Assembly (NCBI GenBank): GCA_026709815.1
Contig: JAPOSH010000091.1
Coordinates: 1-40,776 of the forward strand
Origin: a bacterium
Lineage (GTDB): Bacteria > Actinomycetota > Acidimicrobiia > Acidimicrobiales > Bin134
Reading direction: 5' to 3'
Length of the DNA stretch: 40,776 nucleotides
Below are positions 34,177 through 39,319 of the stretch, piece after piece. The notes under the pieces are model-generated. The model had not been told where the DNA came from, made no database searches, and saw only the letters and a list, made by a program, of their open reading frames with translations. The number at the start of each line of letters is the position of its first letter. The first letter of the stretch is position 1. A program made the position numbers and the translations under genes.

Positions 34177-37100
34177 TCAGCCTTGTCCGAGAAGTACCTT
34201 CGGCTCTGAGGCTACCACCGCTTTTTCGGAAAGCACCTTTGAGCTTCCACCCGGCTTCATGGACACGCCGTAGAGGCAGTCGGCTGCTTCCATCGTGCGC
34301 TTCTGGTGGCTCACAATGAGAAGCTGGGCATCGGCTCGGAACTCGTCAACGAGCTGCAGGAAGCGATGCAGATTGATGTCGTCAAGCGCGGCTTCCACCT
34401 CGTCCATGACATAGAAGGGCGATGGCCGGCTGCGGAAGACCGCGAAGAGGAAAGCCAGCGCGGTGAGCGATCTCTCCCCCCCTGAGAGCAGGCTCAATCG
34501 CCGGATGTTCTTGCCCGAAGGACGGGCCTCGATCTCCACCCCGGTGTCTAGCAGCGCGTCGGGCTGGGTGAGCCTCAGCTTGCCCTCGCCGCCGGGGAAC
34601 AGAGTCTGGAACAGGTCGGCGAAGTTGCGGGCCACGTCGGAATACGCCGAGGAGAACACGGAGATGATCTCCTCATCGATCTTGCGGATCACCTTGCGAA
34701 GCTCCCGGCGGCTTTGGCGGATGTCGTCGATCTGGCTCTGCGTGAACTCGTAGCGCTCCGACATCGCTTCGTATTCCTCCAACGCCAACGGGTTCACCGG
34801 CCCCATGATGCGCAGTTCTTGCTCGAGCGACCGGATGCGGTCAACGGGCGCAACGCCCTGCTCGAGGTCGGGGCACGGCGCGGCCACTGCTTCACCGGGC
34901 TCGCAGTCCAGCTCCCGGCGGCACCGGTCAACCGCGGCCTCGAGCCTGACGCCGGCCTCCGCCAGCTCGATCTCGACGCTGCGGTCCCGCTCTCGGCACC
35001 GTCCCAGCCTGGCTTCAGCCTCCGACCGCTGGCGGCGCAAATCCTCCAGCTGCCGGGCGGCCTCTCGCGCCGCTTGCGATTCCCGAGCCCTCCGCCCGCG
35101 AAACTCCTCAAGCTGTTGGCCGGTCTCCTGGGCCCTCTGAGCCACGAGCTGCATCATCTGGTCCACAACGGACAGCCGGAGGTCGATCGCCTGCCGACGG
35201 GAGGCGGCTTCAGCGCGGGCTTGGGCCATCTGGCTCAGCCGGCGCTCGACCTCTGCTCGCTGAGCGGTCAACAACCGGCGCCGTTCATCGATGCCTGCCG
35301 CTCTCACCTGGTAGTCAGAGCGGAGGCTGCCGGTGGCCTGGGACTTCTCGGCCAACTCCTGTCGGGCCCGGCCCATCTCCTCGGCGCGAGCCCGCTGCTC
35401 GGCCTCTTGCGCCTCATGCCGAGGCAGCTCCCGGCTCAGCTCCCCGACCCGGCGGCGATCCCCGTTGATCCTTTCGCCCAGCTCCTCGCAGCGGGGCCCG
35501 AGCGCGGCAATGCCCACCTCTGCATCACGAAGCTCTCGCTCTGTCGCCGCCGCCCGATCCCGAGCGCGGCTGACCGCATCAGACTGGCTGTCGGCCAGCT
35601 CTCGGGCCCGGGCCTCGCGTCGTCCGGCCTCCTCCCGACGGCTGTCCGCCGCGGCCAGCCGCTGCTCGCCCATCCGGACCGCTTCGGCCGCTCGGGCCGA
35701 GGCCAGCTCTGCGTCTTCCAGCAGGCCCTTGGTGGCCCCGGAGCGGCGAACCCCCACCCGCCATCCTGAAGGGGAGAAGCGGTCGCCCCGGCGCGTCACA
35801 ACCACAGAGGCGGGGTGGGCCGCCGCCGCCGCCGCCGCTTCCCTGCTGCTGTCCACCACCCCGACCCCGCCGACGAGGGCGTCGAGCAGCCGGTCCACCC
35901 CCGGCGCCGACGAGCGGACATGGCGCCGCAAGGGGGTGCCGACAACCGGAGACGAAGCCCCCGGCGCCGACGAGCCCAAAGCCAAGACCGCGCCGCTCAT
36001 ATTGTCGGCCTCCAGCGTCGCGACAGCCCTCATCGCCACCTCGGAGTCGGACGCCACCACGGCGGCAATCGCCTCCCCCGCGGCGGCCTCGAAAGCCTCC
36101 TCCCATCCCCTATCGATGTCGACGACGTCGAGCAGGACGCCCACCACGCCTTCGATGCCGACGAGGCGCTGTGCCCCTGACGCGTCGCGCGCCTCGTCCA
36201 ATGCCAGCGACAGCGCCTCCCGCCGGGCCTCCCAGGCCTGCCTCTGGCCGACCGCGTCGGCCAGCACCGCCCGCTCCTGCTCGCAAACGGCCCGGGCCTG
36301 CTCGCTCAGGCGCTCGGACGACTGATGCTCCTCTTGCCGGGATCGCTGAGAGGCTTCGGCCTCGGCGGCTTCGGACCAGTGCCGCTCCAGCTCTTCGACC
36401 AGTGCCTGCCGGCGCTGCTGCAGCTCCTGCAGGTTCCGGCGGAGGCGATCCGACTCTGCTTGATCCCGCAGGATGGAAGCCTCCAAGACCCTGATCTCGC
36501 CCTTGACACGCGGCACCTCTGAACCCGCTGCCGGCGGACGCTCATTTCCCCACTGCTCGTCGAACGACAGGCGGAGCTGTTCGAGCTCCTGCTCCGCATC
36601 GTCGAGGGCGGCCGCATCGGGCCCCAGAGCGGCCTCCGATTCCTCTGCCTCATGCAGCTGTTGGCCCAGACGGTCCGATTCGGCCTCCAACGAGGCCACC
36701 AAATCCTCATCCACCCCTGCACTGCGGTCGCGCAGCAGACGCAGTCGGCGCTCGGCCAACAGCGCCTCCAAGCCCCGCAGCCGCTCGGTCGACCCTTCAA
36801 AGCGCAGCAAGGCGCGGCCGGTGTCGGACCCGTCGGCCTCTGAGAGGCGGGCCTCGGCTGCGGCGAGTTCCCGGCCCAATGCCTCGACTCGCCCGGTGAT
36901 CTGCTGCGTCTCACGGCACCCGGATGCCTGATCTTGGGTCAATTGGCGAACCCGTCGGCGCAGCTGGTCGATCTCCCGCCCGGCGAGAAAGCGGCGAACG
37001 CCGCTCAACTCCGCCACCAGGCCGCCATGGCGCCTGACCGCCTCGGCCTGCCGTTCCAGAGGTTTCAGCTGGCGGCGTATCTCCCGCACCACGTCGGACA

Positions 37101-37671
37101 GCCGGTTGAGGTTGGCTTCTGAAGCGGCCAGCCGCCGCTCCGACTTCTCCTTGCGGCGGCGGTGCTTCAATACTCCGGCCGCCTCCTCGATGACCGCCCG
37201 GCGATCCTCGGGCCGCGCGCTCAGCACTCCCTCTATCTGGCGCTGGGAGACAATGACATGCTGTTGGCGGCCGACGCCGGAATCGCTCAGCAGCTCTTGG
37301 ACGTCGAGCAGACGACAGGGAACCCCGTTGATGGCATAGGTGCTGTCGCCGCTGCGGAACAGCGTGCGGGTGATGGTGACGTCCTCGAAATCAATGGGCA
37401 GCAGTCGGGAGGCGTTGTCGATGCTCAGCGACACTTCTGCCCGGCCCAATCCCGCCCGGGCCGCGGTTCCAGCGAAGATCACGTCGTCCATCTTGGCCGA
37501 GCGCACCGACGTCGGGGCCTGCGCCCCCAGCGCCCAGGCCACTGCGTCCACGACGTTGGACTTGCCGCTGCCATTGGGGCCCACGATGGCGGTGACGCCG
37601 GGCTCGAACACCAGCGTGGTGGGATCGGCGAAAGATTTGAATCCCTTGAGCGTCAGCGCCTTCAAGAACAC
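34177..37671 (-). CDS. smc: Chromosome segregation protein SMC
   Basis: SMC is the ATPase of the bacterial condensin, working with ScpA and ScpB. The 1164-aa length is normal. The N-terminal head has VGPNGSGKSNVVDAVAWALG (Walker A, about 30). Two long coiled coils (about 165-490 and 640-1000) rich in Glu, Arg and Ala flank the hinge (about 500-640, GIEGVVGVLLDVVDIDRGWEEAFEAAAGE). The C-terminal head has RRLSLLSGGERSLTALAFLFAVF (signature) and FYVMDEVEAALDDIN (Walker B). It sits between the Fpg-like gene and the HtrA-like gene. ScpA/ScpB are not in the window. Confidence 0.97.
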   Translation of the reverse strand: MFLKALTLKGFKSFADPTTLVFEPGVTAIVGPNGSGKSNVVDAVAWALGAQAPTSVRSAKMDDVIFAGTAARAGLGRAEVSLSIDNASRLLPIDFEDVTITRTLFRSGDSTYAINGVPCRLLDVQELLSDSGVGRQQHVIVSQRQIEGVLSARPEDRRAVIEEAAGVLKHRRRKEKSERRLAASEANLNRLSDVVREIRRQLKPLERQAEAVRRHGGLVAELSGVRRFLAGREIDQLRRRVRQLTQDQASGCRETQQITGRVEALGRELAAAEARLSEADGSDTGRALLRFEGSTERLRGLEALLAERRLRLLRDRSAGVDEDLVASLEAESDRLGQQLHEAEESEAALGPDAAALDDAEQELEQLRLSFDEQWGNERPPAAGSEVPRVKGEIRVLEASILRDQAESDRLRRNLQELQQRRQALVEELERHWSEAAEAEASQRSRQEEHQSSERLSEQARAVCEQERAVLADAVGQRQAWEARREALSLALDEARDASGAQRLVGIEGVVGVLLDVVDIDRGWEEAFEAAAGEAIAAVVASDSEVAMRAVATLEADNMSGAVLALGSSAPGASSPVVGTPLRRHVRSSAPGVDRLLDALVGGVGVVDSSREAAAAAAAHPASVVVTRRGDRFSPSGWRVGVRRSGATKGLLEDAELASARAAEAVRMGEQRLAAADSRREEAGRREARARELADSQSDAVSRARDRAAATERELRDAEVGIAALGPRCEELGERINGDRRRVGELSRELPRHEAQEAEQRARAEEMGRARQELAEKSQATGSLRSDYQVRAAGIDERRRLLTAQRAEVERRLSQMAQARAEAASRRQAIDLRLSVVDQMMQLVAQRAQETGQQLEEFRGRRARESQAAREAARQLEDLRRQRSEAEARLGRCRERDRSVEIELAEAGVRLEAAVDRCRRELDCEPGEAVAAPCPDLEQGVAPVDRIRSLEQELRIMGPVNPLALEEYEAMSERYEFTQSQIDDIRQSRRELRKVIRKIDEEIISVFSSAYSDVARNFADLFQTLFPGGEGKLRLTQPDALLDTGVEIEARPSGKNIRRLSLLSGGERSLTALAFLFAVFRSRPSPFYVMDEVEAALDDINLHRFLQLVDEFRADAQLLIVSHQKRTMEAADCLYGVSMKPGGSSKVLSEKAVVASEPKVLLGQG

Positions 37672-37737: not shown

Positions 37738-38583
37738 TCAGATCTGGCACTGCTCGCAGTAGTACGTCCACCGGCGACGGAAGCGGTATTTCTGGATGGG
37801 ACGGTGGCAGCGGGGGCAAGGCCGGCCTTTCTGACCTGCTTGCTTGAACACGTTGAGATATGCCTCATAGCCCCCCGGCTGACCGTGAGCATCCACGTAG
37901 AGCCCGTCTTCCAGGGTGGTGCCCCGATGTTTGGCGGCATCATGGAGGGTCTCCACCATCGCCCGATGCAAACGCCTGACCTCTTGAGGCCCCAACGAAC
38001 TCGGCAGGCGGTCGAACCGCAAACCGGAGGCGAACAGGATCTCGTCGGAGTAGAGCTCCCCTAGGCCGACGACTACGCGGTCATCGGTCAGCACTGCCTT
38101 CAGCTTGGCGTCTTGGGCCAAGAGGAGCTGGCCGAACATCCGCCAGGGCACCGGCTGATCCAGCGGATCAATGCCCAGCCCGTCAAGCTCGGGCACTTCT
38201 TCAAGCAGCTTTTCGGCGTTGACCAAGAACATCTCAGCATCGCCGACCGCGTCCACCAGCCGAAGCTGCCCGCTCTTGGTGAAGGTGATCGACACCATGG
38301 TGTCGGGTTCGACATCGTCCCGGTTGGCGTGGCGACGCAGTCGGCCGCCAGAGCCCAGGTGAACCACCAGCACATCTTCGGTGTCCAACCCCATGATCAG
38401 GTACAGGCCGCGACGGCGCACGTTGTTGACCTTCGCCTTCTCCAACCGCCCGACGAACTTCTTGACGCCTCCCGACCGCTTGGCGTATGCCGCCTTCGCC
38501 ACCTCCGCCGACTTGACTCGCAGACCGGACAGCTCCCGGTCCAGGTCGCGGCGGATGGTCTCGACTTCCGGCAATGCGATCAT
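37738..38583 (-). CDS. Fpg/MutM-like zinc-finger protein lacking catalytic residues
   Basis: The 281-aa protein has the Fpg/Nei fold by sequence: LPEVETIRRDLDRELSG at the N-terminus, VVHLGSGGRLRR in the beta core, a helix-two-turn-helix region (VVVGLGELYSDEILFASGLRFDRLPSSL), HRGTTLEDGLYVDAHGQPG and a C-terminal CPRCx16CEQC zinc finger. The Fpg nucleophile Pro and the Glu after Met are Ile and Ala here (MIALPEVE). The active-site Lys (RRGKY in the family) is Leu (RRRGLY), the DPRRFG-type loop reads DAVGDA, and the GNIYA Asn is Glu. It is unlikely to cut 8-oxoguanine; it may bind DNA only. ATG 38583 is fixed by GAGGAG seven bases before; the track start at 38925 lies inside rnc. Confidence 0.9.
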   Translation of the reverse strand: MIALPEVETIRRDLDRELSGLRVKSAEVAKAAYAKRSGGVKKFVGRLEKAKVNNVRRRGLYLIMGLDTEDVLVVHLGSGGRLRRHANRDDVEPDTMVSITFTKSGQLRLVDAVGDAEMFLVNAEKLLEEVPELDGLGIDPLDQPVPWRMFGQLLLAQDAKLKAVLTDDRVVVGLGELYSDEILFASGLRFDRLPSSLGPQEVRRLHRAMVETLHDAAKHRGTTLEDGLYVDAHGQPGGYEAYLNVFKQAGQKGRPCPRCHRPIQKYRFRRRWTYYCEQCQI

Positions 38584-38611
38584 CGGGTCACTCCTCGTCG
38601 GGCTGCTGTGA

Positions 38612-39319
38612 TCATGGGGCGGCGACCGCCTCGGGTTCCAAGGTGTGCCAGGCGGCGGCGGCGGCGGCCTGCTCAGCCTGCTTTTTGGACCGACCCCCGC
38701 CCCGGCCTCGCTCTTCGCCGTCGACGTGCACAACGGCCAGGAACTGCTTGGCGTGGTCGGGGCCCCTCTCAGACAGCCGGTACTCAGGAGCCTTGTAGCC
38801 GCAGCGAGCGCAATGCTCTTGCAGCCTGGTCTTGAAGTCCCGAAAGCCCGGACCTCGAGAAGCCGAGGCAATGGGTTCAGCCAGCCACCCCCGGACCAGA
38901 TCGACCAGAACCTCCCAGGGAGCATCCAAGTAGACCGCCCCGATCACCGCCTCCATGGCGTCGGAGAGGATGGACGGCTTTTCCCTGCCCCCGGAGACCT
39001 CCTCGCCGCGCCCGAGGCGGAGGGCCTTCGCCAGCTGAAGCTGCTCAGCCAGATCAGCCAGAGTCTCGGCCCGCACCACTTCAGATCGCAAAGGGGCCAG
39101 CTGGCCCTCGGCCATCTCCGGAAATGCGGTGTAGATGTGGTCGGTCACCACCAGAGCCAAAACGGAATCTCCCAAGAACTCCAGCCGCTCGTTGGAGGAG
39201 GCTCCGGCGTGGTCGGCGCACCAAGAACGGTGGGTCAGCGCCTCGACCAGCAAGCCGGGCTGGTTGAAGCGGTAGCCGAGGCGGTCGACTAGAGCGGCGA
39301 TGTCAGGGTCGGCGGTCAG
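38612..39319 (-). CDS. rnc: Ribonuclease III (apparent CTG start)
   Basis: RNase III cuts double-stranded RNA in rRNA precursors and mRNAs. The RNase III domain shows LTHRSWCADHAGASSNERLEFLGDSVLALVV, the catalytic signature, and SDAMEAVIGAVYLD with the second acidic cluster; a dsRNA-binding domain follows (DFKTRLQEHCARCGYKAPEYRL, GRGGGRSKKQAEQAAAAAAW). The track start at TTG 39253 removes the conserved N-terminal helix. The open frame continues upstream as ADPDIAALVDRLGYRFNQPG, and the only plausible start is CTG 39319, which overlaps the acpP stop as CTGA. That gives 235 residues, the normal length. The start is inferred; the identity is certain. Confidence 0.94.
   Translation of the reverse strand: MTADPDIAALVDRLGYRFNQPGLLVEALTHRSWCADHAGASSNERLEFLGDSVLALVVTDHIYTAFPEMAEGQLAPLRSEVVRAETLADLAEQLQLAKALRLGRGEEVSGGREKPSILSDAMEAVIGAVYLDAPWEVLVDLVRGWLAEPIASASRGPGFRDFKTRLQEHCARCGYKAPEYRLSERGPDHAKQFLAVVHVDGEERGRGGGRSKKQAEQAAAAAAWHTLEPEAVAAP

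Follow-up and report, generated by a model that had tools for sequence, protein, structure and literature searches.

What becomes of a DNA repair enzyme when its active site is gone but its fold and its place in the chromosome are not? This is the question raised by one gene in the window, the whole stretch of 40,776 nucleotides of actinobacterial DNA analysed here. The gene lies between rnc and smc, all three on the minus strand, which is the rnc-mutM-smc position of actinobacterial MutM recognised in the first-pass annotation. Its product reads MIALPEVE at the N-terminus (translation of the open reading frame), and it is orthologous to rnc-linked MutM/Fpg. The idea of a paralog inserted next to a canonical rnc-linked copy was rejected, as the window gene is itself the ortholog. 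The features concerned are as follows.

34177..37671, minus strand: smc, downstream neighbour of the pseudo-MutM gene.
37738..38583, minus strand: pseudo-MutM gene, 281 amino acids (open reading frame; PF01149 and H2TH matches; AF2 model and Foldseek).
37747..37818, minus strand: C4 zinc finger with Arg, residues 256-279.
37930..37989, minus strand: helix 199-218, with conserved Q200, R203, R204, R207 and K218; candidate retained interface.
38056..38058, minus strand: codon 176, Glu replacing the H2TH-motif Asn174.
38236..38253, minus strand: codons 111-116, DAVGDA replacing DPRTFG, with Arg112 and Phe114 lost.
38350..38352, minus strand: codon 78, Ser replacing the void-filling Met77.
38404..38406, minus strand: codon 60, Leu replacing the catalytic Lys60.
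38575..38580, minus strand: codons 2-3, Ile-Ala where the catalytic Pro-Glu is expected.
38591..38596, minus strand: ribosome binding site GAGGAG, 7 nt 5' of the ATG.
38612..39253, minus strand: rnc (RNase III), upstream neighbour of the pseudo-MutM gene.

In overall architecture the protein resembles the MutM of Geobacillus stearothermophilus (PDB 1r2y), which is the best Foldseek match of its AF2 model (pLDDT 96): the whole fold is that of MutM (TM 0.89), with an H2TH region and a C4 finger carrying an Arg. Pfam recognises the Fpg N-domain (PF01149, E 8e-20) and the H2TH domain (E 1e-15), both above cut-off, while zf-FPG_IleRS scores below its own. Alignment to the Geobacillus enzyme nevertheless sets the protein apart from MutM/Fpg: Pro2 is replaced by Ile, residue 3 (Glu) by Ala, Lys60 by Leu, Met77 by Ser, Arg112 by Val, Phe114 by Asp and Asn174 by Glu, and both NCBIfam Fpg equivalog cut-offs are missed (PRK01103, 200.8 of 212 bits; TIGR00577, 182.1 of 203.3). 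H74, D110, the four zinc Cys and the finger Arg264 are kept. The glycosylase active site is thus lost and the zinc finger present, as had been read from the sequence at first. In mycobacterial Nei2, Ala at Pro2 or at the Lys equivalent kills the AP lyase, and Ala at Glu3 or at the Lys equivalent kills the glycosylase (PMC11323726). Since all three of these essential residues are absent here, we infer from sequence a pseudoenzyme that would carry out neither base excision nor AP-lyase chemistry.

Could another amine serve as the nucleophile, giving residual or new chemistry? E6 and E181 are indeed kept, but the protein has none of Pro, Glu3 and Lys60, and Ile at position 2 should, given the specificity of MetAP, prevent Met removal, which makes such chemistry very improbable. 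A precedent is NEIL3, in which Pro2 is likewise replaced and which is active with Val2 (PMC11323726); it keeps the adjacent Glu, however, whereas the window protein lacks Glu3 and the Lys as well, and its Ile2 is not the small residue that is exposed in NEIL3 after Met removal. Another comparison is offered by mycobacterial Fpg2 (Rv0944), an additional Fpg/Nei homolog that lacks the catalytic residues at the N-terminus (PMC2734929). Rv0944 is N-terminally truncated, and full-length in M. smegmatis; the window protein is full length, has lost its residues through point changes rather than by truncation of the Fpg2 type, and is the rnc-linked ortholog.

Neither an assembly artefact nor a misplaced start explains the substitutions. 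All 21 congeneric genomes carry the pseudo-MutM (73-89% identity) with the same losses, having I or L at position 2, A at 3, L at 60 and E at 174, and none keeps MPELPEVE at this locus. Since the substitutions recur in all 21, two of which are single-contig assemblies, a sequencing error was rejected. The start, said from the outset to be fixed by a ribosome binding site, is indeed preceded by GAGGAG, and in-frame stops lie 3 codons 5' of it in two relatives (L019 and L024), excluding a longer N-terminus that would hide a Pro; together with the 21 congeners, these stops led us to reject a wrong start. The rnc-X-smc synteny is common to the congeneric genomes. As for selection, dN/dS of the gene within the genus is about 0.03-0.14 (Nei-Gojobori), and mean pN/pS is 0.15, compared with 0.16 for rnc and 0.27 for the genus's other, catalytic-type MutM; the smc pairs L012/L013 and L010/L012 were left unused as unreliable, resting on partial or misaligned segments. 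With these ratios and a frame open in every congener, the gene is not a pseudogene, in agreement with the initial reading. For the same reasons, to which residues invariant across families are added, the view of a relic drifting to loss and held only by its operon position is scarcely credible, complete as the decay of the active site may be.

How far does this loss extend? In the order, rnc-linked orthologs were taken from about 57 families and scored at seven key residues. The distribution is bimodal, with 6-7 of the seven residues present in 49 sequences and at most two in 66; a single sequence (L026) lies in between, with four. Dead copies occur in 21 of the families, to which an intermediate in family f6 is added, and they are flanked by rnc and usually smc wherever the contig reaches. 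Among the dead-copy families of a 198-genome survey, the gene was absent from only one genome, itself 80% complete. With the active-site columns removed, the tree gives a single origin within the order (support 99/80, 65 dead rows), and a tree including them does likewise; several independent losses inside the order were therefore rejected, and the expectation that the substitutions would form a clade was borne out by all congeners and the 21 families. The nearest branch to the dead group is L026, followed by the canonical MutMs of f14, f19 and f53. Dead copies are also found in other Acidimicrobiia, for example Candidatus Microthrix sp. UBA7884, while others have canonical MutMs.

Three loci of this survey deserve a description of their own. 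The intermediate MutM of family f6 (L026:1495-2328, genome G026) keeps Pro2, Glu3, Lys60 and His74, and has lost Met77 (to Thr), Phe114 (to Ser), Asn174 (to Ala) and the finger Arg (to Gly). L204 (G078, family f58), first-branching in the order's dead group, keeps Arg112 and Asn174 and has Ala2 and Thr60. In L049 (G032, family f12; a genome 95% complete in two contigs), a canonical rnc-linked MutM is broken over two frames of 118 and 228 aa.

A phylum-level search of 297 genomes, from which the best ones were retrieved, yielded a second dead group outside the order (families f67, f75, f79, f90, f97, f104 and f123), which also adjoins rnc. Its closest canonical relatives, in f73 and f107, have Pro2 deleted (MELPEVEV) and keep all the other key residues. 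The phylum tree requires two changes to the dead state, no bootstrap tree unites the two dead groups, and forcing them together costs 31.6 lnL, although with an AU p of 0.1; two independent origins are favoured, then, without being proven. The Pro2-deleted genes themselves (L250-L252, L254-L258, L260 and L302), which are rnc-linked, start with GTG or ATG followed by GAG, with a stop codon immediately before the start in L251 and L257, and their products are possibly Met-amine glycosylases or lesion sensors.

Across the dead proteins, the losses centre on the catalytic, void-filling and phosphate-contact sites. The phosphate contacts K60, H74, N174 and mostly R264 are gone across the family, the zinc cysteines are lost in 44 of the 66 dead proteins of the order, and the pI is 5-7 in most dead proteins of both groups, as against mostly 8.3-9.8 in canonical relatives. 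The acidic shift makes plain DNA binding doubtful as a family-wide function, and the initial description of a non-catalytic DNA-binding derivative does not hold as a general claim. The window genus is an exception: its proteins have a pI of about 9 (8.8-9.4) and a C-terminal domain charge of +6 to +7, and they keep the zinc finger, the finger Arg and mostly H74, so that DNA or RNA binding is possible there. A protein of this kind might use the old cleft, which the fold retains, to dock on DNA that is damaged, abasic or structured, and so serve as damage sensor or chromosome factor. With K60, N174 and the void fillers lost even here, and zinc and basic charge mostly lost elsewhere, we regard this as rather unlikely. 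Still less probable is an RNA or ribosome-related role tied to RNase III through the basic finger and helix: rnc adjoins and a basic patch is retained, but that synteny came down from canonical MutM and nothing else indicates RNA. Indeed, the one basis for any link to SMC or RNase III is this synteny, which canonical MutM also has.

What, then, is being kept? Fifteen residues (K24, T102, G105, D139, W147, F150, L188, Q200, R203, R204, R207, K218, R258, R260 and Y274) are shared by both dead groups and, for the most part, by the canonical sisters, and are rare in generic MutM. R203 and R204 reach 100% in both dead groups versus 11% and 37% in generic MutM, and K24 reaches 96-100% versus 11%. 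In the AF2 model, Q200, R203/R204, R207 and K218 recur on helix 199-218, and the helix face with R203, R204 and R207 is nearly invariant, as are K24, R258 and R260. Because this face is common to the canonical sisters and both dead groups, the function it serves would predate the loss of catalysis; because strong purifying selection has preserved both fold and locus in many families, the protein should have some other job.

On balance we think it more likely than not that the protein is a pseudoenzyme which retains a way of binding, independent of catalysis, that was already a property of MutM in this actinobacterial lineage. Another MutM copy would have taken over 8-oxoG repair, thereby freeing the rnc-linked one, and selection would have retained the binding function already present. 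According to the model, binding would probably occur via the basic face of helix 199-218 (R203/R204/R207, K218) with K24 and R258/R260, and the ligand would be either a protein or, away from the repair cleft, a nucleic acid. The Arg helix, found in canonical sisters too, may instead reflect lineage-specific core packing, D139, W147 and F150 being conserved alongside. More tentatively, the MutM of one actinobacterial lineage could have an unrecognised second, non-catalytic function, exposed by two independent losses of catalysis within the phylum, through which strong selection preserved the rnc-linked protein and one basic helix face.

A candidate for this take-over is at hand. The second, catalytic-looking MutM that one was led to look for exists: a further MPELPEVE start is found elsewhere in 22/22 genomes of the genus, and the window genome's own, on contig C235, has this start, the Lys, DVRRFG, GNIY and C4 all intact. 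Additional MPELPE starts also occur in 49/52 other dead-copy genomes, versus 20/32 genomes with a canonical copy (Fisher p 7e-4, uncorrected for phylogeny), and their greater frequency alongside a dead copy fits a paralog taking over repair.

In the open-access papers searched, no description of an rnc-linked dead MutM family was found. A pseudo-MutM that is widespread, strongly selected and probably evolved twice would imply a role of the MutM scaffold beyond base excision, and the dead MutMs would be natural separation-of-function proteins with few candidate residues. As their Pfam domain content reads as formamidopyrimidine-DNA glycosylase, dozens of families have likely been assigned a wrong repair capacity. 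Lastly, the window genome encodes a third Fpg/Nei-like protein on contig C66 (L003:1099-1914, minus strand; start MPEIIEVEYYRR), with an unusual finger, CPRDG...CPRHQ.
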